Of a stretch of 64,000 nt of DNA, positions 2,582 to 13,826 are shown piece by piece; positions within the stretch are counted from its first letter, which is position 1, and each line of letters opens with the position of its first letter. The DNA is from Lachnospiraceae bacterium. Its GTDB lineage: Bacteria; Bacillota; Clostridia; Lachnospirales; Lachnospiraceae. Made by a program: the position numbers and the translations under genes. Below the pieces are notes generated by a model. That model ran no database searches, was not told where the DNA came from, and saw only the letters and a list, made by a program, of their open reading frames with translations. The stretch covers positions 1-64,000 of the forward strand of contig JAGATV010000041.1 of the NCBI GenBank assembly GCA_017621075.1, read 5' to 3'.

Positions 2582-3325
2582 CTACTGCTTTTCTGTCTCA
2601 TTGCAGGTTTCCACGCAAAAACCCTTATACCCACAGGCAGTACAGGTAAGCTTTCTCATAGTAAGCGTATGCCTTGAGAAAAAGAACTCCCGAAATCCGG
2701 GTTTGAATACCTGGTGACACTTAGGGCAGATATACACTGTCTGTTCATAATAGGATGTTACTATCCATACAACCATCGGTATAATGATCATAAGCCCGAT
2801 CACAAAAGGCAGCCAGATCCCTTTCCAGATTCCCAGCACCAGGGTTCCTATCTCGATCAGATCCATCATGATCCCGGCAATCATCATCTTCGTGTGCACT
2901 TTACGCAATTTTTGCCTGTTCTTCATCGTAAATGCTATGTCGTTTATGGTCTCTATTGAAAAATCCGCCTCACCAGAATGTCCGCTGCTCTGAATGCTCC
3001 GGGCCATTGCTTCTACCAGACCAAGCTTATCCCTCCTGTCTTCGATTTCCTGCTTTAACAGCTTTCCCTGCTCTTCCAACAACAGGGAAATTACCTCTTT
3101 TGCATTTTCCTCCGACAGGACACGGGCGATCTGATCGATGGACAGATCCATGCTCCGAAGGAAACAGATCAGTTGCAGCTTCTTTAAGTTCTCTTCGGAA
3201 TAAAGCCTGCGTCCGCCTTCGCTTAGGCTGTCCGGCCTAAGGATCTGTCTGGAATCATAATACTGGACCGTCCGCACCGATACCTTACAGAGCTTTGCCA
3301 TCTCTCCGGTCGTGTATTGTGACAT
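2582..3325 (-). CDS. MerR-family regulator with membrane segments and zinc-ribbon-like tail
   Basis: A DNA-binding regulator of 247 residues. Residues 1-70 form a typical MerR winged helix-turn-helix (YTTGEMAKLCKVSVRTVQYY, then RRLYSEE). A coiled region follows, then two hydrophobic helices around residues 145-190 and a C-terminal region with paired cysteines (CPKCH and, later, CTACG) that could bind zinc. The start is set by AAAGGAGG 8 bases before the ATG at 3325; an in-frame GTG upstream overlaps that site. A membrane-anchored MerR could sense the envelope or lipid state. It is transcribed alone, next to the lipid-type operon. The ligand is unknown. Confidence 0.8.
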   Translation of the reverse strand: MSQYTTGEMAKLCKVSVRTVQYYDSRQILRPDSLSEGGRRLYSEENLKKLQLICFLRSMDLSIDQIARVLSEENAKEVISLLLEEQGKLLKQEIEDRRDKLGLVEAMARSIQSSGHSGEADFSIETINDIAFTMKNRQKLRKVHTKMMIAGIMMDLIEIGTLVLGIWKGIWLPFVIGLMIIIPMVVWIVTSYYEQTVYICPKCHQVFKPGFREFFFSRHTLTMRKLTCTACGYKGFCVETCNETEKQ

Positions 3326-3349
3326 AGCTTTCACCTCCTTTCACGTTAC

Positions 3350-3409: not shown

Positions 3410-4843
3410 TCACTGTTTTAGTCTCTTTTCCACACTGTCCACCGCTATATCATACTGCCCGATTCTCTCATAACCCGGAAGCTCTGCGTTCAATCCTGCA
3501 AAAAACGCCTCCCAATCCCTGTTTTCCGGCTCCTTTAAGTAAATATGACAGCCCAGTTTACTGTTCTCCATGTACACCAGCGCCTTACTAATGTTGGCAT
3601 TCCGCTCACATATGATATGCTCGATATGGGTGGGCTCCACATTTTCGCCGTTCTCCCCCAGGAGCACCTTCTTGATCCGTCCTGTGAGATAAAGTTTCTT
3701 TCCCCCGTTTCTCTCATCAGCCTCCAGATAACCAAGGTCTCCTGTCCTGAAATAACCGTCCCCGGTAAATACGCTGTCCGTCAGTTCCTCATCTTCGGCA
3801 TAGCCTAAGAACACATTGTCTCCCTTCACGGCAATCTCCCCGATGCCGCAAGCATCCGGGGAAAGCACCTTCACCTTGATGTCTTCCGCAATGGTTCCCA
3901 CCGACCGGGTATCCGGGTCTTGCGGATACTGGATGGCAAAGGTGGAAGCGGTCTCAGACAGCCCGTAAGCCTCCATCATATTCAGTCCGCTTTCCTTGTA
4001 AGCTTTTCGGATGTCCTCGTCAAAATAGGCTCCGCCACAGAACAGATAGGCAATCCTGCTGCCGAAGGCTGTACCGATCCGCTGTCCGTAATGTTCATAA
4101 AACCTTCTGTAGATGGCCGGCACCCCACAGAAAAGGGTGGGGTTCACCTCCAGGATCTCCTGTTCCATCCCCCGGATGCCGGAACACAGATAAATCCGGA
4201 AGCCAAACACCAGAGAATACAGAAAATTATAGATTCCCCCGTAAGTGTGGCTTAGCGGCAAAAACAGGTAGTCCACATCCCTCTCATCAAAAGGGCACCT
4301 TCGGTACAGGCTGTCAAGACCCGCAAAGATATTCTTCTCAGAGAGCATCACCGCCTTGGGGCTGGCTGTGGTGCCACTGGAAAACACGATCTTACAGCAC
4401 TCTTCTTCCTTCCTTGGCTCCCATTGTCCGGGAACCTTCTGCACAGAAGACAGACAGATACAGGTAAGGGAGGGCAGTTTCTCTTTGACCCTGTCGATCA
4501 CCGCCTGCTTTTCCTCCCCATAAAGGATATAGGAGATCTCTAACTGCTTTACTGCCCGAAGCAGATTCTTCTCCTTCCACTCCTTAGAGACACACACGCT
4601 GATCCCCACATAATGAAGGAGCGCCAGATCCGCTGTCATCAAAAGCCTGCTGTTTTCCCCGTAGAGCAGCACAGGCTTCCCCAAAAGCCCCAGGGATACA
4701 AGCCAGCCCGCAAGCCCCCTCACATCCTCAAGAAAATCTCCGTAGGTCTTTCCTTTCCATTCTCCGGCAACCTTTTCAAAAAGATAGGGGTGTTCCTGCC
4801 ACTTTCGCTCATTGCATTCCAGTATCTGTTCCAACCTGTTCAT
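3410..4843 (-). CDS. AMP-dependent acyl ligase (long-chain acyl-CoA synthetase-like)
   Basis: An adenylate-forming enzyme of 477 residues that would activate a carboxylic acid with ATP and load it onto CoA or a carrier. The phosphate-binding motif FSSGTTASPKAV lies near residue 155, the YGLSETA motif near 290, and the hinge region YFRTGDLGY with the later LTGRIKK near 365-395. It is shorter than most acyl-CoA synthetases at the N-terminus and C-terminus. Its ATG overlaps the stop of the upstream GNAT gene by four bases, so the two are translationally coupled. It is the last gene of the lipid-type operon. The substrate is unknown; a fatty acid is inferred. Confidence 0.8.
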   Translation of the reverse strand: MNRLEQILECNERKWQEHPYLFEKVAGEWKGKTYGDFLEDVRGLAGWLVSLGLLGKPVLLYGENSRLLMTADLALLHYVGISVCVSKEWKEKNLLRAVKQLEISYILYGEEKQAVIDRVKEKLPSLTCICLSSVQKVPGQWEPRKEEECCKIVFSSGTTASPKAVMLSEKNIFAGLDSLYRRCPFDERDVDYLFLPLSHTYGGIYNFLYSLVFGFRIYLCSGIRGMEQEILEVNPTLFCGVPAIYRRFYEHYGQRIGTAFGSRIAYLFCGGAYFDEDIRKAYKESGLNMMEAYGLSETASTFAIQYPQDPDTRSVGTIAEDIKVKVLSPDACGIGEIAVKGDNVFLGYAEDEELTDSVFTGDGYFRTGDLGYLEADERNGGKKLYLTGRIKKVLLGENGENVEPTHIEHIICERNANISKALVYMENSKLGCHIYLKEPENRDWEAFFAGLNAELPGYERIGQYDIAVDSVEKRLKQ

Positions 4844-5904
4844 TCGTCCAAATCCTTTTTTAACAGCACATATTCATAGCGCTGCTCTATATGCTCTTCC
4901 CCATATTTCTGAGTGATCTTGCCGTCTCTCGCCAAAGCTCCGATACTTGGAAGACCGCTTGTCCTCAGCTCCTCCATGATGCTGCCCACCAGTGCCTTGC
5001 CCAGCCCCCGGTGGTCCTTGTGGACTCCCATATACAGCATGACATACCGCCCGGGCCTCTTCTTTACGGCAAATACCTTCAAAAGATTGCCCACCTTGCC
5101 CAAGTGGTATACCCGATTGCCATAATCGGGCACACTGACAAAAAAGCCCACTGCCTTCCCTTCATAATAAGCCATCTTGACCATGCTCATATTGAGGATA
5201 TAGCGGTAATCTGAGAACACCGCAGCAAAATCTTCATAAGACACCGCCTTGTAGACAGGAAAGTCGCTGTAAAGCTCTGTGATCAGCCCATATAACTCGC
5301 CCATCACTTTGTCAAAATCCCGGATATCAGGGCTTAGGATCTCATAGCCTTTTTCCACAAAAGCACTGTACCTGTCATCATAGAGAGGTTCTGCTGCCTC
5401 CACTCTGTTATAGTCATTGGAGGTATAGTGGTGGCTCACCCAAAATCCATTGTCCAAAAACAGCTTTAAATAGTAATCCTTGTTGTAGGGCTCGCCGGTA
5501 TAGGGCTTTTTGTCGAACAGATTACTCTTCAGCCGGTATTTGATCCAGAAGGAGGCATCCACCGGGCCTGTCAGGCTGTGATAGCCCAAAGCCTTGGCAT
5601 ATCTTCCGGCTTCCCGGAACAGAAATTCGGCTGTCCTATTGTCGTTGATGCACTCAAAAAAGCCGATATAGGCGGTGTCGTCCTCCGGATAGGTGGTGAG
5701 GGCAAACCTGCCCACCGCCTTTTTCCCCTCATAAATCAGGAATTTGTGCAATGTAAAATATTTGCTCAGGGGATGTTCCTCCCTCAAAAGCCGCTCTGTC
5801 TCCTTCGGATTTTCCATATTGGTCTCTTTGGCATACAGAGTTTTGGGGAGTCCGATAAAGTCCTTGATATACTCTTTTTCCTGTCCGAACCGGATGCATT
5901 TCAA
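4840..5904 (-). CDS. GNAT-like acyltransferase domain protein
   Basis: A 354-residue soluble protein of the large GNAT-related type. The C-terminal part (YVMLYMGVHKDHRGLGKAL, about residues 285-305) carries the Arg/Gly-X-Gly acetyl-CoA binding motif. The middle part (SLTGPVDASFWIKYRL) resembles uncharacterised bacterial proteins annotated as N-acetyltransferases. AAGGAGG lies 8 bases before a TTG at 5904; the GTG at 5913 overlaps that site, so TTG is chosen. It sits between the second PEP-synthase-like gene and the acyl ligase, suggesting that it transfers an acyl group in the same pathway. The acceptor is unknown. Confidence 0.65.
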   Translation of the reverse strand: MKCIRFGQEKEYIKDFIGLPKTLYAKETNMENPKETERLLREEHPLSKYFTLHKFLIYEGKKAVGRFALTTYPEDDTAYIGFFECINDNRTAEFLFREAGRYAKALGYHSLTGPVDASFWIKYRLKSNLFDKKPYTGEPYNKDYYLKLFLDNGFWVSHHYTSNDYNRVEAAEPLYDDRYSAFVEKGYEILSPDIRDFDKVMGELYGLITELYSDFPVYKAVSYEDFAAVFSDYRYILNMSMVKMAYYEGKAVGFFVSVPDYGNRVYHLGKVGNLLKVFAVKKRPGRYVMLYMGVHKDHRGLGKALVGSIMEELRTSGLPSIGALARDGKITQKYGEEHIEQRYEYVLLKKDLDE

Positions 5905-5909
5905 AGCGC

Positions 5910-8165
5910 TCACCTCCTTATGATCTCAATCTCTCCGGTGTTTCCGTTCATCCGCACAAGGTCTCCTGTGCGCACGGTATCCAAAAGCCCCTCTACCCCC
6001 ACGACAGAAGGGATCTTAAGCTCTCTGGAGATAATGGCGGTATGGGACAGCAGAGACCCCTTTTCGGAGATGACGCCCTTGGCGCATACCAGCAAAAATA
6101 CCCAGCCGGGGTCGGTCATCTTCGTCACCAGGATCTTATCCTGGTGATCCTTCACTCCGGTAACATCCGTGACCACCAGCGCTTCCCCTTCCACAATGCC
6201 GTCGGAACAAGGGGTGCCCAACAGTTTCTTTTGGTTTCTAAAAAACTTATGGGCATTGACGCTTTTGTGCTTTTTGTCAAATTCCTTTCCATCAAAGATC
6301 AGCCGCTGATAAGCCGGGAGAGCGGCATAAAGCTCATACGCTTCCTTTCTGTGTGCGATCACGTCCCGCAGATCCCCTCTATCCCCAGAAGGTGTCTTGG
6401 CTGCAGGATGATTTTCCGCCAGTGCAAAAGCTTCCTCCATCGCAAGCCAGAAGATATCCCTGGGTTCCTCTATAAGCCCTTCCTCCGCAAAGATCTCCCC
6501 CAGTCTGGTGAAGATCAGCCGGACCATACCAAATATCCTGCTCCGGTTCAGTCTGGAGATCTCTCTGTTGGCAATTCCTCTCGCCGCCTCTTTTGCCAGG
6601 AAACGATTCATGCCTTTTAATTTGGGAGCGGCAGGCGCTTCCTTCTGCAGCTGTTCGCATATCTGTGCCAGTTTTTCCGGGTCCTCCTGATACTGGGCGA
6701 TCCGCTCCTCCAAAAGTCCGGGATTACTGCGAAAAGTCTCACTTTCTAACTTTAATTCCTCCAGATTGCGGTCCCCGTATTCCCTGATATAGGAAAGGAA
6801 CCGCTCCTCATACTGCTCTTTTGTGAGGCTCTGCTTATCATGAGCCAGCCGGACCATTGCCTTAATAGGCTTTAAACTCTCAATGTTGGAGATGCCGGAG
6901 ATCACCTGATTGCTCCCCTCCCCCAGGCGCTTTTTGAACAGTCCTGTAAAGAGAAAGGCATAGATGTCATTTAGCAGGGTCACATCCCAGACAGACAACA
7001 AAGTATCCTCAAGCTCACGAAACAGAGCGACCAGCTCTTTTGCTGTGATCTTTTTGTGATACCTCCCATAAAAGCTGTCGCTCACCCGGACAAAATCCTC
7101 ATTCAGCTTTTTCATATTCCCCGGCACACGAAGCATCTCGGAGATCACATTAAAGTAGGTCTTTGCCCGCACCAGCTTAGGCAGACGGACCGCATCCTTG
7201 TCATAGCTTCGTATCTTCACGCCCAACATATCCTGCCAGACCGGAATGATCTTGTGGTTCATTGGCAGGAATTTGATGACGGTATACCAGTTACTGATCT
7301 TGTAATAAAGCCTTCCGTTGACCGCTCCCACCATGTTGGAAAATACGCTGTCATACTTTGCAAGCTCCTTTTCATTCTTGAGCACCCGTCTGCTGATGCT
7401 TCGAAAGATACCGCTGTATACCCTGTCCACAAAGGAGCAGGTCAGAGGCAGGCTGATGCCCGGGTAGCTCTCTACAATATTGCTGTTGTCAAGGATCAGA
7501 GGATCTTTCCCCGAAAGAGTGGTGATATCCCTTGCCTGCAAAAGAAAGATTTCTTCCCCCACAATGGCAAATTCCACATCCAGGAATGTACCCAGAACAG
7601 GCTGTATATCGGAAACCAGCCTCACCAGCTTTTCCACCATGGCAGCGGACAGATAATCTTCCTTTCCCTCATAGTAGTACACACGGTCCGTCACATTGTA
7701 ATAATAGCTTGTGGTATCTGTCTTATCCTCCACCACATTGTCCCCTGTGCCCCGTCCCGCCACGATGACCATTTCATTTAAGAGCCCCTGGGGATTGGCT
7801 GTAAAGCACACGCCGGAATACTCTGCCTGCACCATCTGCTGTACGATCACATGCATTTCCATATCGGCTACAGAAATCCCCTGATGGGCAGCATATTCCC
7901 GGATACCCCGGTTTTTTAGGGAAGCAAAACACTGCTGTATCCTGGCAGGCACTTCTTCTGCCGGCACATTCAGATAAGTGTCAAACTGCCCTGCAAAACT
8001 GTGGTCCCCTCCATCCTCCACACTGGCGGAGGAGCGCACCGCACAAAGCTCCCAGGGAATCTGAAGGGTATGTAAGTCCGTGTCCCTGTCCACTACCAAA
8101 AACGCCGGCACCGGGAAGCCCTTCTGTCTCAAACATTCCAGATTTTCTATCTTCTTTCCAAGCAT
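5910..8165 (-). CDS. PEP-synthase-like phosphotransferase (ATP-grasp plus His domain), copy 2
   Basis: A 751-residue protein with an N-terminal PEP/pyruvate-binding ATP-grasp domain (LCAVRSSASVEDG near residue 45; YSGVCFTANPQG near 140; LLQARDI near 215), a long helical middle region, and a C-terminal swivelling phosphohistidine domain with GSLLSHTAIISREL and His708. The PEP-binding TIM barrel of true PEP synthase is absent. The layout matches rifampin phosphotransferase, which moves a phosphate from ATP to a hydroxyl. It probably phosphorylates an alcohol intermediate of this operon. The ATG at 8165 follows AGGTGGGG; an in-frame GTG at 8174 is possible. Confidence 0.8.
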   Translation of the reverse strand: MLGKKIENLECLRQKGFPVPAFLVVDRDTDLHTLQIPWELCAVRSSASVEDGGDHSFAGQFDTYLNVPAEEVPARIQQCFASLKNRGIREYAAHQGISVADMEMHVIVQQMVQAEYSGVCFTANPQGLLNEMVIVAGRGTGDNVVEDKTDTTSYYYNVTDRVYYYEGKEDYLSAAMVEKLVRLVSDIQPVLGTFLDVEFAIVGEEIFLLQARDITTLSGKDPLILDNSNIVESYPGISLPLTCSFVDRVYSGIFRSISRRVLKNEKELAKYDSVFSNMVGAVNGRLYYKISNWYTVIKFLPMNHKIIPVWQDMLGVKIRSYDKDAVRLPKLVRAKTYFNVISEMLRVPGNMKKLNEDFVRVSDSFYGRYHKKITAKELVALFRELEDTLLSVWDVTLLNDIYAFLFTGLFKKRLGEGSNQVISGISNIESLKPIKAMVRLAHDKQSLTKEQYEERFLSYIREYGDRNLEELKLESETFRSNPGLLEERIAQYQEDPEKLAQICEQLQKEAPAAPKLKGMNRFLAKEAARGIANREISRLNRSRIFGMVRLIFTRLGEIFAEEGLIEEPRDIFWLAMEEAFALAENHPAAKTPSGDRGDLRDVIAHRKEAYELYAALPAYQRLIFDGKEFDKKHKSVNAHKFFRNQKKLLGTPCSDGIVEGEALVVTDVTGVKDHQDKILVTKMTDPGWVFLLVCAKGVISEKGSLLSHTAIISRELKIPSVVGVEGLLDTVRTGDLVRMNGNTGEIEIIRR

Positions 8166-8177
8166 TTTCCCCACCTG

Positions 8178-9077
8178 TTATATCTTTCCTGCCAGCAAGA
8201 ACAGCACTATGGTCACAAGCATCAGGCTCTCCTGCAGATAGGTATACAGCTCCACCTTCTCCACCAGTACGAAGCGCTCCGGGTCTTTCATGAAGCTTAG
8301 GAATTTCCATACCATCCAGGACACCAAAAGCACAAAAAGCAAAATCGTGATCTTATTGAGATTGTATACCAGGATCATGTTGGTGACGATGTCCACCAAT
8401 GTCAGAATCATCACGAACATAGTACTCTTTTTGTAACCAAAGAGTTTGGAATAAGTGGTATAATCGGTTTCGTCCCTGGGTGCCCGGATCTTTCTGGACA
8501 CCTCCCAGATCAGCGCCGGGAAATACAGCGTCCACAGGGTCATGATCGTGATCAGGGAAACCGGCTTGAGATCATACTTGATGACCGTAAAAGAAATCAC
8601 ATAGAGATTGACGAACATCTGCACGGGATTGTGGGTCACCAGTGCCAGCGGAAGGCTTGGCTGTATCTGTTTTTTGTGAAAAAACCACTTGCTCATCAGA
8701 TAACCGTAGCCATAGAGAATGCCAAAGAACAACAGATTGTTCATAAAGAGCAGATTGAGAAGAACTGCCAGGGCCTCCGCCAGGGCGCAGACCACAATGA
8801 CATCTTTTTTTAAGACTCTGCCGCTTGGCAGGGGTCTGTCAGGAAACAGTCTCTGATCCGTCTCGTAATCTTTCAGATCGTCAGCGATCCGAAGCCACAG
8901 CAAAAAGGCAAAGACGGTGTAAGCCCCCACAAATTCCTGGATACCGATCCGAAACTCCGTCACCCCATAATTTAACAGAATGATAAAGTGGATCTCCAGA
9001 AACACGATACAGCCCAGCAGAAATCTGGGCACGATGGGATATCTCTCTTTAAAATAAACCGCCAGCCTCTTTAACAT
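8178..9077 (-). CDS. UbiA-family membrane prenyltransferase
   Basis: A 299-residue polytopic membrane enzyme with about eight hydrophobic helices. Both aspartate-rich motifs of the family are visible: ADDLKDYETD near residue 65, and RDETDYTTYSKLFG near 200. These bind prenyl diphosphate through magnesium. The family attaches isoprenoid chains to quinone rings, haem or glycerol phosphate ethers. The ATG at 9077 overlaps the stop of the decarboxylase gene by seven bases and has a GGAGCAAGGG ribosome binding site. Its place among phospholipid headgroup genes argues for a lipid acceptor rather than a quinone, but that is inference. Confidence 0.85.
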   Translation of the reverse strand: MLKRLAVYFKERYPIVPRFLLGCIVFLEIHFIILLNYGVTEFRIGIQEFVGAYTVFAFLLWLRIADDLKDYETDQRLFPDRPLPSGRVLKKDVIVVCALAEALAVLLNLLFMNNLLFFGILYGYGYLMSKWFFHKKQIQPSLPLALVTHNPVQMFVNLYVISFTVIKYDLKPVSLITIMTLWTLYFPALIWEVSRKIRAPRDETDYTTYSKLFGYKKSTMFVMILTLVDIVTNMILVYNLNKITILLFVLLVSWMVWKFLSFMKDPERFVLVEKVELYTYLQESLMLVTIVLFLLAGKI

Positions 9078-9937
9078 GATCCCTTGCTCCCTATCTTCTC
9101 TCCCAATAAGACTTTCACTTCCGTACCTTCCCCGCATATCTGCAGGATATCTTCACAAAGCTCCACCCTGCCCTTTTGCACAAGCAGTACAATGGTGGAC
9201 CCGCCCAGTTCAAAATACCCCTTTTCCATACCCTTTGTGAACTGCCGGACCGGGTGGTTCACAATCTTTCCCACTAACAGGGCCCCCACCTCTATCTGTA
9301 CCATGGGGCCGAAATTTTTCGTCTGAAGCACATTGACCACACGGGAATTTTTCCGGTAGATCTTGTGGTCTTTGGAAACAGAGCTCACGGTGTGAAGCTT
9401 TCCTTTTATAGCATAACGCTTCACTACCCTTCCCTCGTCCACAAAGATATAGCGGTGGTAATCGTCCATGGTAAGACGGAATACCATACAGATACCGCCC
9501 TCATGATCCGCAAGGTGCACCCTGCCGCCTGTAAGCTCCTGCAGGGTATATTCCACGCCTTTTATCCGGACTCGGTTATCTTTCCCGATAGGATAGAGGG
9601 ACAGTTTGCTGTCCGCCGGAGCCACAAAGCTTTCATCCGCCATATCCACGACTCTTCTGTCCGGCTTGATCTTCCTGGTAAAAAAATCATTAAAACTTGT
9701 AAATTCCTGTTTTTCGTAATCCTCCAAAGGAATCCTGTACTGTTCCACAAAGGGTGCTATTTTCTTCCGGCTATAGGAACTGGCGTAATACCAGCCGCTC
9801 ATCCGGGAAAACACCGGGTGGATCACTGCCTTTAACAGCAGTCTCCCCGGCCAGTGATCGTATAAAATCTCCAAAAGCCCGCCTCCATACTGGGAAATGG
9901 GCTCATACTTCTGCAGTTTTCTGTTATATACCTCCAA
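9071..9937 (-). CDS. psd: phosphatidylserine decarboxylase proenzyme
   Basis: A pyruvoyl enzyme that turns phosphatidylserine into phosphatidylethanolamine at the membrane. The 288-residue product has the family length. DDYHRYIF, the conserved HTVSS region and the self-cleavage site LGGST (about residue 240), whose serine becomes the pyruvoyl group, are all present. AAGGAGAGG sits just before a TTG at 9937 that starts LEVYNRKLQKYEP, as clostridial homologues do; an ATG at 9955 lacks a site. It follows the PssA-like gene, its normal biosynthetic partner. In this operon the substrate may be an unusual serine lipid. Confidence 0.88.
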   Translation of the reverse strand: MEVYNRKLQKYEPISQYGGGLLEILYDHWPGRLLLKAVIHPVFSRMSGWYYASSYSRKKIAPFVEQYRIPLEDYEKQEFTSFNDFFTRKIKPDRRVVDMADESFVAPADSKLSLYPIGKDNRVRIKGVEYTLQELTGGRVHLADHEGGICMVFRLTMDDYHRYIFVDEGRVVKRYAIKGKLHTVSSVSKDHKIYRKNSRVVNVLQTKNFGPMVQIEVGALLVGKIVNHPVRQFTKGMEKGYFELGGSTIVLLVQKGRVELCEDILQICGEGTEVKVLLGEKIGSKGSC

Positions 9938-9954
9938 GGGCCCTCTCCTTTCCA

Positions 9955-10566
9955 TCAGGCTAACACCAAAAGGAACAGGGAAAGCATCCCTGCAGCCAAC
10001 AGGGCAAAGAACAGGCAGGCAGCTCCCTTGGGTTTGGGAACCCTGATATCCAGGATGTTTAACCCTGCCACTGCTGCCACCACCACGGAATACACCGTCA
10101 GAAAGACTCCTTTGGGCAGTGCCAGACTGAGCAGATAGACAACAGGCAGGATCAGCGCCGTATAGGTCACCGGAAGGCCTCTGTAATATTTCACCGGTTC
10201 CTCGCCGCCCTCACTGGTCACATTGAAAAATGCCAGCCTTGCAATGCCACAGATACAGAACACTGCCAGGATCAGGATATGATACCATCTGTTCATGCCG
10301 ATGCGGAGGCAGAGGCACACCGGAAGGGCCAGAAAGCTCATCACATCCACCAGGGAGTCCAGCTGAACTCCGAACAGCTTCTGGGCCTCATTTCTTTTGC
10401 ACTTCCTTGCCACGGCGCCGTCAAAGAGATCGCACACCCCTGCAGCCATCAGACAGGAAAACCCATAGACCACATTTCCCAAGACAGCCTGACAGATCCC
10501 CAATACCGAAAAAGCCATTCCTATGTACGTCAAAATCACTGATCTGTTCCATTCACCGATCCACAT
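9955..10566 (-). CDS. pssA: CDP-alcohol phosphatidyltransferase (PssA-like serine transferase)
   Basis: A 203-residue integral membrane enzyme that would transfer a CDP-activated lipid to serine. The CDP-alcohol motif is seen as DLFDGAVAR at about residues 46-54, then GVQLDSLVD at about 66-74. The gap between the arginine and the glycine is 11 residues, longer than the usual 8 or 9. The following MSFLALPVCL helix is typical of PssA. It precedes psd and lies downstream of a CarS-like cytidylyltransferase, giving a CDP-lipid to serine to ethanolamine order. Serine as acceptor is inferred from the neighbour. Confidence 0.85.
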   Translation of the reverse strand: MWIGEWNRSVILTYIGMAFSVLGICQAVLGNVVYGFSCLMAAGVCDLFDGAVARKCKRNEAQKLFGVQLDSLVDVMSFLALPVCLCLRIGMNRWYHILILAVFCICGIARLAFFNVTSEGGEEPVKYYRGLPVTYTALILPVVYLLSLALPKGVFLTVYSVVVAAVAGLNILDIRVPKPKGAACLFFALLAAGMLSLFLLVLA

Positions 10567-10570
10567 ATAC

Positions 10571-13096
10571 TCACTCTTTCTCTATCGTGATACAACCGGT
10601 CTCCCCATCAATGGTGATGGTCTGACCGTCCCGTATCTTCTTCATCACATCATGGCAGCTGACAATGGCAGGGATACCGTACTCCCTGGACACGATGGCC
10701 GCATGGCAGAGGATACCGCCGTATTCCGTAACAATGCCGGAAAGGATGGCAAACTTGGAGGTCCATCCCGTATCCGTGAACCTGGTTACCAGGATATCGT
10801 GTTCCTTTAGTCTCGCTATCTGACCAAAATCCTCGATCACTCTCGCAGTGCCTGTCACCCGGCCGCTGTTGGCTCCCAGTCCTTTGATCTGCCCTTCAGC
10901 CGGTGCCGGATCTTTCTTTTCTGCTTCTGCCGCCTCTGAAAAGACGCCGCCGATCTCATTTTCGCTCATATAGTTGGCATAAGCGTTGTAATACTCCCTG
11001 TTGCGCACCACCATGGTCCTAAGTTCCTCCACGGGCAGCTTCCCATCCAGATAATCCCACAGGGAGGACACTCTGGTAAACCAGATATCTTCCGGCTCAT
11101 CCAGCACTCCCTTTTGTACCATAAGCTCTGCCAGTTCCATGGTATACACCCGGATAAGATAATAGAACCTGGTGGAGATATCACGGTACTCCTCCCGCCA
11201 CCACAGCATCTTCCGCATATTCTCTATCTTAGCTTCGATCTTTCGGTATTTCCTCTTTCCCACCTTATCCTTGATCTGTTCCAGTATCTTCCGGTAACTC
11301 AACCGGCCCTTTTCCTTATCCGCCAGGGGACTGTATTCATCTCCCAGGGAAACCATATCACGGATGCCGGAAAGAAGGGGTGTCACATCCTCATAATAAC
11401 AGGGATAGGTCACATCCAGCTCCTTGTCGGAATGATAGCCGTAATCTGCTATGAGCTTTTTCACAAGGGGCATGGAATGCTCTTTGGTTTCCATGGCACC
11501 TTTCAGCTCCTCCACGCTCTTTTCCTGCCAGAAAGCAAGGCTTTCCTCATCCCCCCGTATCCTCCGGGAGATCTCCCACATATCATAGAAGGGGAGCAGA
11601 TGGGAAATATTGTCTATGGCGCCAAGCAGGGTCAGGTACTCGCTCTCCGATACATATTTCAACAGACTGTCCTTGTACAGGGACTGGTGGATGGTGTTGA
11701 TGAAGATCTGCCAGAAATAGGTAGCCTCGCTTTGCAGGTAGGTCCTGCGGGTCAGCTGATACCACTCCTTTTCAATATCCTCTATGGCATTGTCATCGTA
11801 TTTTTCTTTGTAACAATAATACTTCTTAAGCAGATCCTCTTTGTATTCCTGACAATGTTCCTTTCGCTCTTTCAGGATCTTCTTCTGGGCAAAAAACATC
11901 CGGGTGATGGCTGCCAGGGTGCCCGGGGTCAGCTTTGTTGTATGGCCGTCGCCCTCATAAGTGATCCTGACCCCATACTCGCTGTCAAATTCCCGCTCCT
12001 TGTAGCCGATGACCTTGCTTAGGGCCAGCTTCACCACCGACACATTCCAGTAGCACCTTCCGTAGAACATATCTCCCAGTTTCCTGTCCACTTCCTTTTC
12101 TGTGAGGATCTTGGAATCCAGCAGGAACTTCCGCAGCGTAAATTCCCAAATATATTCGTAAAGGCTCCACATATAGGGCGTGCAGACACCGGCAGACACT
12201 CCGCCGTCCTTAAAATCTGCCGTGGACCATATATCGTTGAGTCCTCCATAGCCTATCTTCGTGATCCTTCTTGCCTGTAAGAGGTACAGGGTCTCCTCCT
12301 CCACGGCGAACTCAATATCACAGGGATAACCGAACAAAAGCTGCACTTTCAGGAAGATCTCCCCAAACTGCGCAAGCTGCTCTTTCCTTAAGATGCTGTT
12401 GTCCTGATCAAAATGCCCCTTCTTTTCGTACCAATTATAGTAATACTGCTCCGGCGCGACTCTGCCGCTCACGATGTCCTCACCCAGTCCTCCGGCAACC
12501 TCTATGGACATCTCCTTGTCATTGCCGGTAACGGGATTTACTGTAAAACAGATTCCGCTGTACTTTGCCTGCACCATCTTTTGAACCACCACCGACATGG
12601 CCAGATCCTTAAAATCAATCCCGTTGTTGATCAGGTAATTCAGGCTGACTTCCGAGAACATGGACCTGTAACAGTCTATGACGGCGGTCTCGACGGCATC
12701 AAAGCCCTTTACATTTAAGTAAGTCTCATACTGCCCCGCAAAGGAATACTCATCCAGATCCTCCTTGGTGCCGCTGCTCCTGACCGCATAAGCTTCCCCT
12801 TCCTCCAAGGCTTCCCGCAGATGGTCCCTGGTGCTGTGACACAGGCGCTTTCCCTCAAAAAGAGCGGATATCCTTTTGCTGATAACACCCACATTTTCCC
12901 TGTCAAGGGAATCCAACAGAAGTTCCAGATCCTGACGGATTTTGTTTTCTTCCAAAAAACTTCCGTACTCTTCCACATCCAGGACCACACCGTCCGGCAC
13001 GGCAAAACCTGCCTGCTTCATAACACACAAAAACTTTCCCTTATTTCCAAGACTTTTCCCCTCACCTTTAAGGGGCTCTCCGATCCTCTGAAACAT
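10571..13096 (-). CDS. PEP-synthase-like phosphotransferase (ATP-grasp plus His domain), copy 1
   Basis: An 841-residue relative of PEP synthase and rifampin phosphotransferase. The ATP-grasp half shows YAVRSSGTKEDLDEYSFAGQ near residue 100 and YSGICFTVNPVTG near 180, ending with YLLQARRI. The C-terminal phosphohistidine domain has GGILCHAAIVSREYGIPAI with His798. The PEP-binding barrel is missing. It is about 90 residues longer than the second copy in the same operon and the two are clearly diverged, so they probably phosphorylate different substrates. AGAGGTAGGG precedes the ATG. An alcohol kinase role is inferred from architecture and context. Confidence 0.8.
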   Translation of the reverse strand: MFQRIGEPLKGEGKSLGNKGKFLCVMKQAGFAVPDGVVLDVEEYGSFLEENKIRQDLELLLDSLDRENVGVISKRISALFEGKRLCHSTRDHLREALEEGEAYAVRSSGTKEDLDEYSFAGQYETYLNVKGFDAVETAVIDCYRSMFSEVSLNYLINNGIDFKDLAMSVVVQKMVQAKYSGICFTVNPVTGNDKEMSIEVAGGLGEDIVSGRVAPEQYYYNWYEKKGHFDQDNSILRKEQLAQFGEIFLKVQLLFGYPCDIEFAVEEETLYLLQARRITKIGYGGLNDIWSTADFKDGGVSAGVCTPYMWSLYEYIWEFTLRKFLLDSKILTEKEVDRKLGDMFYGRCYWNVSVVKLALSKVIGYKEREFDSEYGVRITYEGDGHTTKLTPGTLAAITRMFFAQKKILKERKEHCQEYKEDLLKKYYCYKEKYDDNAIEDIEKEWYQLTRRTYLQSEATYFWQIFINTIHQSLYKDSLLKYVSESEYLTLLGAIDNISHLLPFYDMWEISRRIRGDEESLAFWQEKSVEELKGAMETKEHSMPLVKKLIADYGYHSDKELDVTYPCYYEDVTPLLSGIRDMVSLGDEYSPLADKEKGRLSYRKILEQIKDKVGKRKYRKIEAKIENMRKMLWWREEYRDISTRFYYLIRVYTMELAELMVQKGVLDEPEDIWFTRVSSLWDYLDGKLPVEELRTMVVRNREYYNAYANYMSENEIGGVFSEAAEAEKKDPAPAEGQIKGLGANSGRVTGTARVIEDFGQIARLKEHDILVTRFTDTGWTSKFAILSGIVTEYGGILCHAAIVSREYGIPAIVSCHDVMKKIRDGQTITIDGETGCITIEKE

Positions 13097-13108
13097 ACCC
13101 TACCTCTT

Positions 13109-13705
13109 CTAAAACATATTTTTTCGAAGCCTCATCACATACAACAGCATATTGATCACGATATGGGTCACTGCACCCACAACCACATAGAGGAAATAAA
13201 ATCCCACAGTGATGGGCGCATACAGGCAGACCACAAGGACACAGCCGAACACGGAATCCGCCTGGTCAAAGAACACAAAAAAAGCTTTCAGGCATCCGTT
13301 AATACTCTTGCCCGGCACAATCCCAAGCCGTCTTTTCACAAAGCTGTTTGGCAGTTCAAACAGTCCGTAGGCAAGTCCCAACAACAGTCCGATCACCAGA
13401 TTGTTCCCAAATGTATTCTCTGCCCCCTGATAAAACAGATTGTAAGCCTCGATCCCGGTGCCTCTGCACACCGCCCCCCAGAGCACCATACAGATCATAT
13501 TGAGCACAATATACCCAAGAAATCCCTTCCAGGTCTTATTGTCACCAAAGATCCTTCTGCCGTCCGCAAAATTTTTCCCTCCGTCCATGGGGATCTGCAG
13601 GCACTTCATTGCCTTCGACCTGCACCAGACAGAATTCAGGATACCTGCCAGGATAGGGCCAAGCAGAGTGATATACATGCCTGCCAATATCTTCCATACC
13701 TTCAT
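13109..13705 (-). CDS. CarS-like CDP-lipid synthase (CTP:lipid phosphate cytidylyltransferase)
   Basis: A 198-residue membrane protein resembling CDP-archaeol synthase (CarS, formerly DUF46). The hallmark segments are present: DGRRIFGDNKTWKGF near residue 50, ELPNSFVKRRLGI near 110, and FFDQADSVFG near 145. Related enzymes activate a lipid phosphate with CTP. It is the first gene of the eight-gene operon. The ATG at 13705 has GAGAAGGTGAAGG upstream; the ATG at 13735 has no site. This is likely an additional cytidylyltransferase besides CdsA, which is not in the window. The actual lipid is unknown. Confidence 0.75.
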   Translation of the reverse strand: MKVWKILAGMYITLLGPILAGILNSVWCRSKAMKCLQIPMDGGKNFADGRRIFGDNKTWKGFLGYIVLNMICMVLWGAVCRGTGIEAYNLFYQGAENTFGNNLVIGLLLGLAYGLFELPNSFVKRRLGIVPGKSINGCLKAFFVFFDQADSVFGCVLVVCLYAPITVGFYFLYVVVGAVTHIVINMLLYVMRLRKNMF

Positions 13706-13826
13706 GTCCTTCACCTTCTCAACATCTTTCTGCATAATTCACTATATTGTAGCATCATTTTAACATACCTTTCTGCTTTTGTGACATTTTTTTATACTTT
13801 CTTTACGCCTTTTTCAAGAACATCTA

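Follow-up and report, generated by a model that had tools for sequence, protein, structure and literature searches.

A conserved eight-gene operon of Lachnospiraceae and other Clostridia as a candidate for a lipid pathway of its own

Does a compact bacterial operon, in which relatives of archaeal phospholipid enzymes lie beside two large dikinases, an acyltransferase and an acyl ligase, encode a lipid pathway of its own? The question is raised by a stretch of 64,000 nucleotides from a Lachnospiraceae bacterium (NCBI GenBank assembly GCA_017621075.1, contig JAGATV010000041.1, positions 1 to 64,000), hereafter the window, in which eight genes run on the minus strand from position 13705 to 3410. 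An earlier note on this DNA had taken them for an operon dedicated to a lipid head group. The promoter-like site and the genes are listed below in transcription order (window coordinates).

13757..13785, minus strand: promoter-like site upstream of the CarS-like gene (GTCACA, spacer of 17, TAAAAT, TG-extended), weak, a consensus match only
13109..13705, minus strand: CarS-like (CDP-archaeol synthase-like) CTP:lipid-phosphate cytidylyltransferase (PF01864, 2.5e-17; NF003114, 74 bits)
10571..13096, minus strand: dikinase A (PEPSa), RPH-type ATP-dependent phosphotransferase (PPDK_N, 1.6e-60; PEP-utilizers, 2.4e-24)
9955..10566, minus strand: PssA, CDP-alcohol phosphatidyltransferase, serine type, operon clade (PF01066, 4.2e-14)
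9071..9955, minus strand: Psd, phosphatidylserine-decarboxylase-like, with GGST cleavage motif (PF02666, 2.5e-46)
8178..9077, minus strand: UbiA-superfamily membrane transferase (first Asp motif kept; second reads RKxxAP)
5910..8174, minus strand: dikinase B (PEPSb), RPH-type ATP-dependent phosphotransferase (PPDK_N, 3.3e-37; PEP-utilizers, 1.9e-20)
4840..5913, minus strand: tandem-GNAT acyltransferase, YghO-like (profile alignment to YghO)
3410..4843, minus strand: AMP-forming acyl ligase, of the long-chain-acyl type by best match (PF00501, 3.7e-49)

The close packing, single direction and gene order described in the earlier note were confirmed. The junctions measure +12, +4, -1, -7, +3, -4 and -4 bases in transcription order, so that four of the seven are overlaps. 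The start that the note had chosen for the CarS-like gene, ATG 13705, is supported by a purine-rich stretch ahead of it and agrees with the homologue start (the longest open reading frame, ORF, begins at 13735); UbiA was placed at ATG 9077, with the longest-ORF start at 9137. Promoter-like sites in the scanned region numbered 16, compared with 12.7 expected in shuffles, and no tRNA or Rfam match was found in the window.

The arrangement of the eight genes is more than chance. When 84,980 species genomes were scanned with UbiA, at least 421 places were confirmed by tblastn, the best 80 of which were examined. Forty-eight of these loci have enough flank (over 6.5 kb to the left of UbiA and over 7 kb to its right), and 30 of the 48 share the identical order CarS-PEPSa-PssA-Psd-UbiA-PEPSb-GNAT-Lig; the other 18 comprise six loci without PssA, six without the ligase and six other single arrangements. 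Conservation of the neighbourhood across Lachnospiraceae and beyond, on which the earlier reading depended, was thus borne out. As separate gene calls, the 80 loci, many of which lie on contigs that end early, contain UbiA 79 times (that of L079 was not called separately), PEPSb 79, Psd 74, GNAT 73, CarS 70, PEPSa 69, PssA 66 and the ligase 57 times. PEPSb accompanies UbiA in all 77 loci with room for it. Junctions of 30 bases or less separate called neighbours in 453 of 487 cases (longest-ORF starts), and an operon gene on the opposite strand was seen in none of the 80 loci. No outside gene occupies a fixed position common to most loci; the commonest outside cluster, ABC-transporter-like by our reading, is present in 18 of 90 loci, without a constant position.

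Record titles assign the operon loci to Lachnospiraceae, Ruminococcaceae, Saccharofermentans and unplaced Clostridia, many of them (uncounted) from animal guts. Five hosts with operon genes beyond the UbiA-PEPSb pair look like isolates, as their records bear no metagenome or uncultured label: Butyrivibrio sp. XPD2006 and INlla14, Lachnospiraceae P6A3 and AC2028, and Ruminococcaceae YRB3002. The record of [Eubacterium] yurii, which has the pair alone, is likewise free of such a label. The UbiA family was found in 8 of 61 relatives, one of which has the divergent type II form described below. The operon is patchy, since the window's own genome (G000) gave the only clear UbiA match among 398 genomes drawn evenly from the phylum (six others were weak, 20-31 bits). 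The window UbiA had no match on 72,556 plasmid records and the type II UbiA matched one; the plasmid places reached through PEPSb and opened (H22, H24, H25) list no UbiA neighbour. No paper on this operon was among the matches listed in the open-licence literature; other UbiA and GNAT neighbourhoods are described in the accessible part of PMC12419801. For the family motif counts given below, an ORF had to reach at least 85% of the length of the window protein, and the counts of 68-87 rows contain duplicates, as three places occur twice (L018/L040, L019/L048, L020/L051).

Which lipid head would such an operon make? The CarS-like protein passes its Pfam cut-off (score 63.9, cut-off 22), falls short of the equivalog score of NF003114 (74 bits, cut-off 148) and has its motifs SFxKRR and DQxD in 72 of 72 rows. 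PssA scores 79 bits with the archaetidylserine-synthase model NF038087 versus 72 bits with the bacterial PssA model TIGR00473, both below cut-off, and its DxxDGxxAR motif is present in 67 of 69 rows. According to the accessible part of PMC8633023, serine in MjPSS is coordinated by Asp62, Ser63, Asp66 and Phe105, and Arg101 belongs to a proton network. In an alignment to 7pow, with the numbering matched by us, the window PssA has identical residues at all of these positions, which makes serine the likely acceptor of the operon enzyme. The glycine of the FG motif after LDSxxD, a motif that 7pow has, is found in a single operon-family PssA (1 of 69 rows, namely L055; L052 was read by eye) and in 13 of 15 stand-alone PssA rows; this change more likely concerns the lipid side. 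The self-cleavage motif GGS[TC] of Psd is present in 78 of 78 rows.

Trees were built from every second operon row plus the named ones, without L018, L040, L048 and L051 (40 Psd, 38 PssA), and of the stand-alone rows the last 330 or 260 residues were used. The operon PssA form one clade (37 rows, support 100/99), the exception being that of L055, which sits 2.7 kb past its ligase and groups with the stand-alone type. The operon Psd form one group (40 rows, 83/87, 84% of bootstrap trees, not starred). Psd as such was found in 22 of 61 relatives, and 15 of the 17 fetched stand-alone Psd have PssA adjacent or one gene away; the earlier premise that these two genes are scattered in bacteria does not hold here.

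Might the locus simply be an operon for ordinary phosphatidylethanolamine (PE), with PssA and Psd acting on CDP-diacylglycerol, CarS serving as a second CdsA and the other genes forming a separate pathway that shares the promoter? MjPSS is indifferent to the lipid part, as stated in the accessible part of PMC8633023, and in G000, G008, G021, G036 and G060, several of them incomplete genomes, no Psd other than the operon's was found. As the window's genome yielded no Psd outside the operon, the operon would also serve any ordinary PE synthesis there, and its Psd may make ordinary PE as well. However, a CdsA-type gene (PF01148, 3.2e-55) lies elsewhere in this genome (C16), the operon PssA and Psd group apart from the ordinary pairs, the FG glycine is lost, and the gene order is conserved across loci titled as several genera and families. 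Moreover, Lachnospiraceae P6A3 (G460) has, besides a complete operon, another PssA-Psd pair that keeps the FG motif and was placed by motif and position without a tree, and, while G010 and G462 have two Psd each, G010 has both kinds. We therefore do not favour an operon for ordinary PE only and consider it unlikely. The idea of a dedicated head-group branch gains from these groups and from the genomes with both kinds, and loses from the window's genome having the operon's Psd alone. That genome is 87% complete and encodes two CDP-alcohol transferases: the operon PssA and one that is PgsA-like by our reading.

The two large proteins had been labelled PEP-synthase-like (PEP, phosphoenolpyruvate). 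Both consist of a PPDK_N (ATP) domain, a middle region and a C-terminal mobile/phospho-His domain with the catalytic His, at which the protein ends; no PEP/pyruvate-binding domain was found in either, so PEP synthase was rejected as their function, and the architecture is of the RPH type. Their best PDB matches, 5fbs and 5hv1-3, likewise speak against the old label; these entries are called PEP synthase in the PDB, and we take them to be rifampin phosphotransferase. Each dikinase matches them in two stretches, the C-terminal one best (5hv2 at 3.4e-68 and 5fbs at 4e-68 for PEPSa; 5fbs at 1.7e-38 for PEPSb), and PEPSb also matches an annotated rph gene across 29% of its length. The two dikinases are 26% identical. 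A strict His pattern is present in 67 of 68 PEPSa and 79 of 85 PEPSb rows (82 of 85 with a looser pattern), and VRSS in 66 of 68 PEPSa rows. A third PPDK_N protein, of 884 amino acids, is encoded on the same contig beyond the window (G000:C61:81617-82621) and is possibly an ordinary pyruvate phosphate dikinase.

The fold of the UbiA protein is nearest to archaeal digeranylgeranylglyceryl phosphate (DGGGP) synthase. Its first Asp-rich motif, (N/D)xxxDxxxD, is present; the second is absent, and ExxRKxxAP stands there in 87 of 87 rows, with Lys aligned (by us) to an Asp of 6m31. Prenyl transfer is not secure because this motif is lost. Instead of being a prenyltransferase, the enzyme could act like the membrane-bound phosphoribosyltransferase of the same fold, in which case a lipid would receive a sugar phosphate, or some other group, from a diphosphate donor; we rate this as very unlikely. 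At L098 and L017 no operon gene other than UbiA and PEPSb is present; the [Eubacterium] yurii locus consists of this pair only.

For the GNAT protein no specific family model matched in Pfam or NCBIfam. Its structural model is a tandem GNAT, and a profile alignment with E. coli YghO spans 306 columns (hhalign probability 98.2, E 3.1e-14). In the accessible part of PMC9386255, yghO is listed as one of the aca genes, which encode presumptive acyl-CoA N-acyltransferases in sphingolipid clusters. The operon protein may likewise be a long-chain N-acyltransferase. An acyl-AMP ligase adjoins yghO in E. coli BL21. The best NCBIfam match of the operon's ligase is PRK06187, long-chain-fatty-acid--CoA ligase (135 bits, cut-off 476). 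It adjoins GNAT even where split off from the rest (L146), and GNAT and ligase probably work as a pair, since in G021 they lie together on a different contig from the remaining operon genes. Nine of the 61 relatives have GNAT, namely six genomes with the operon, G051 (a weak match, type II), G020 and G033. An alcohol that is either prenylated or acylated had been proposed earlier; acylation has become more likely through the YghO match, and prenylation is not secure given the lost UbiA motif.

An acyltransferase of this type would also suit a secreted or signalling N-acylated aminolipid or lipopeptide-like molecule, in whose synthesis a dikinase acts as a ligase in the manner of PigC/RedH. YghO-type acyltransferases are thought to acylate amines, and both dikinases match PigC/RedH models, well under the cut-offs. 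On the other hand, CarS, PssA and Psd are phospholipid-type enzymes, and no transporter, carrier protein or peptide gene common to most loci lies beside the block. This is the least probable of the explanations considered here.

Two variant clusters (L023, L113), here called type II, keep UbiA, dikinase, GNAT and ligase, and have a DUF3419 gene in place of CarS, PssA and Psd; we take DUF3419 to be the BtaA family. In G051 (L023) a divergent UbiA and PEPSb are followed by DUF3419, a membrane protein of 440 amino acids, GNAT and the AMP ligase. The G051 UbiA is 23% identical to that of the window and its GNAT is related to the window GNAT; Psd was not found in this genome, the only one of seven in its family with the cluster. 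A plasmid of Roseinatronobacter sp. S2 has the same kinds of genes in the same order, two of the six annotated as hypothetical, and no BtaB-like methyltransferase is listed in the block. Since the core is kept and the head swapped, the core product may be a diacylglycerol (DAG)-like alcohol, and these two clusters, as the same core pathway with a different head, are the strongest hint of it. The plasmid UbiA used as a query also brought up 16 Streptomyces records, with just 39 residues matched.

The 440-residue proteins bear on one more explanation, salvage of alcohols, by which the dikinases would turn an isoprenoid or long-chain alcohol (phytol, farnesol, a fatty alcohol), taken up from outside or recycled, into the diphosphate that UbiA transfers. 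These proteins contain RKxxH, ADxxAA and KSxEG, which we presume to be motifs of dolichol and phytol kinases, two enzymes of alcohol-kinase type stand beside UbiA, and many record titles (uncounted) name the guts of plant-eating animals. Yet the 440-residue proteins have no Pfam match above cut-off, RPH-type enzymes are, as we understand it, known for monophosphorylation, and the carriers also include [Eubacterium] yurii, presumably oral, and an alkaline-spring plasmid. We hold salvage to be quite unlikely.

That the operon encodes an uncharacterised, conserved lipid pathway is well supported, and an ethanolamine head is likely. Direct observations comprise the genes with their order and conservation, head enzymes that group apart, catalytic motifs that are mostly intact except for the second one of UbiA, and the swap of the head in two clusters. 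We tentatively prefer, at somewhat less than even confidence, a self-contained route to an aminophospholipid whose core is non-standard; its reactions, substrates and product we infer as follows. UbiA, always together with dikinase B, would form an ether between a chain and a small alcohol that carries a phosphate, glycerol phosphate for example; the chain would most simply be a prenyl group from farnesyl diphosphate, and dikinase B would provide the phosphate of the small alcohol. The acyl ligase would activate a fatty acid, which the YghO-like GNAT would attach either at a hydroxyl left free on the core or at the amino head. Dikinase A could phosphorylate the finished lipid alcohol where needed, CarS would form the CDP-lipid, PssA would exchange CMP for serine, and Psd would decarboxylate the product to a phosphoethanolamine head. 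In the variant clusters, the BtaA-family enzyme would stand in for CarS, PssA and Psd, the core being a DAG-like alcohol that takes different heads.

Besides the hosts in which the operon's Psd is the sole one, several observations weigh against this pathway. A prenyl diphosphate donor for UbiA is doubtful. Geranylgeranylglyceryl phosphate (GGGP) synthase (PcrB, PF01884), whose absence from the operon the earlier note had already pointed out, has no match in the 87% complete window genome either, and the one polyprenyl synthase there lies beside dxs. Dikinase A seems dispensable, because five loci have CarS without PEPSa (L021, L071, L086, L103, L106). The strict VRSS pattern of the ATP site occurs in just 63 of 85 PEPSb rows, the lower PDB matches of the dikinases include what we take to be true PEP synthases, and RPH-family proteins can also be ligases (PigC/RedH). 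GNAT stands alone, without UbiA, in G020 and G033 (L144:8706-9770, L145:9058-10284). In G025 the UbiA-PEPSb pair occurs without CarS and GNAT. The [Eubacterium] yurii genome, which has the pair too, yielded no Psd; the pair may thus lead to a separate product.

How does the operon compare with known systems? It holds together, as first noted, homologues of four consecutive steps of the archaeal route (DGGGP synthase, CarS, archaetidylserine synthase and decarboxylase); unlike that route it has no GGGP synthase, has lost the second UbiA motif and, within a single bacterial operon, includes dikinases, GNAT and ligase as extra members. With bacterial PE synthesis (CdsA, PssA, Psd) it would share the PssA and Psd chemistry, and does share the serine-binding residues and the GGST motif, but its PssA and Psd form separate groups, the FG motif is altered, and it has its own CarS-like gene in a larger operon. 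The dikinases resemble the RPH/PEP synthase family in their ATP and phospho-His domains, without a PEP-binding domain, and differ in being two paralogues tied to lipid genes. YghO/Aca acyltransferases, which we take to be bacterial ceramide synthases, share the profile match and the adjoining acyl-activating ligase, whereas the window operon has no serine palmitoyltransferase. The BtaA (DUF3419) betaine-lipid cluster is approached by the type II clusters, where DUF3419 accompanies the same UbiA-dikinase-GNAT-ligase core; the window operon has CarS, PssA and Psd instead.

To our knowledge, few links have been made between genes and the membrane lipids of Clostridia from gut and rumen. The operon is compact and five of its hosts look like isolates, so that lipidomics is feasible and could connect a lipid directly with these genes. 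Should the UbiA step yield an ether, the pathway would be a bacterial counterpart of the archaeal route and bear on the lipid divide. RPH-type enzymes are known mainly as antibiotic inactivators; if the proposed pathway is true, they would gain a metabolic role in lipid synthesis, and head-group modules would be swapped on a shared core. A bolder proposal, which we consider speculative and rather unlikely in full, is that gut Clostridia make hybrid lipids with an archaeal-type, UbiA-made ether chain and a fatty acyl chain, a phosphoethanolamine or BtaA-type head, and RPH-type dikinases in place of glycerol phosphate chemistry.

A gene for a MerR-type regulator (window 2582-3334, minus strand) lies directly 3' of the ligase gene on the same strand; it was not found as a widely shared neighbour at the other loci. 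Five metagenome contigs with the operon (L072, L074, L075, L082, L087) are titled Bacilli, Saccharibacteria or Fibrobacter, perhaps through mislabelling or misbinning rather than transfer. At L048 (the same place as L019), extra genes without a Pfam match separate PssA from Psd and UbiA from PEPSb.

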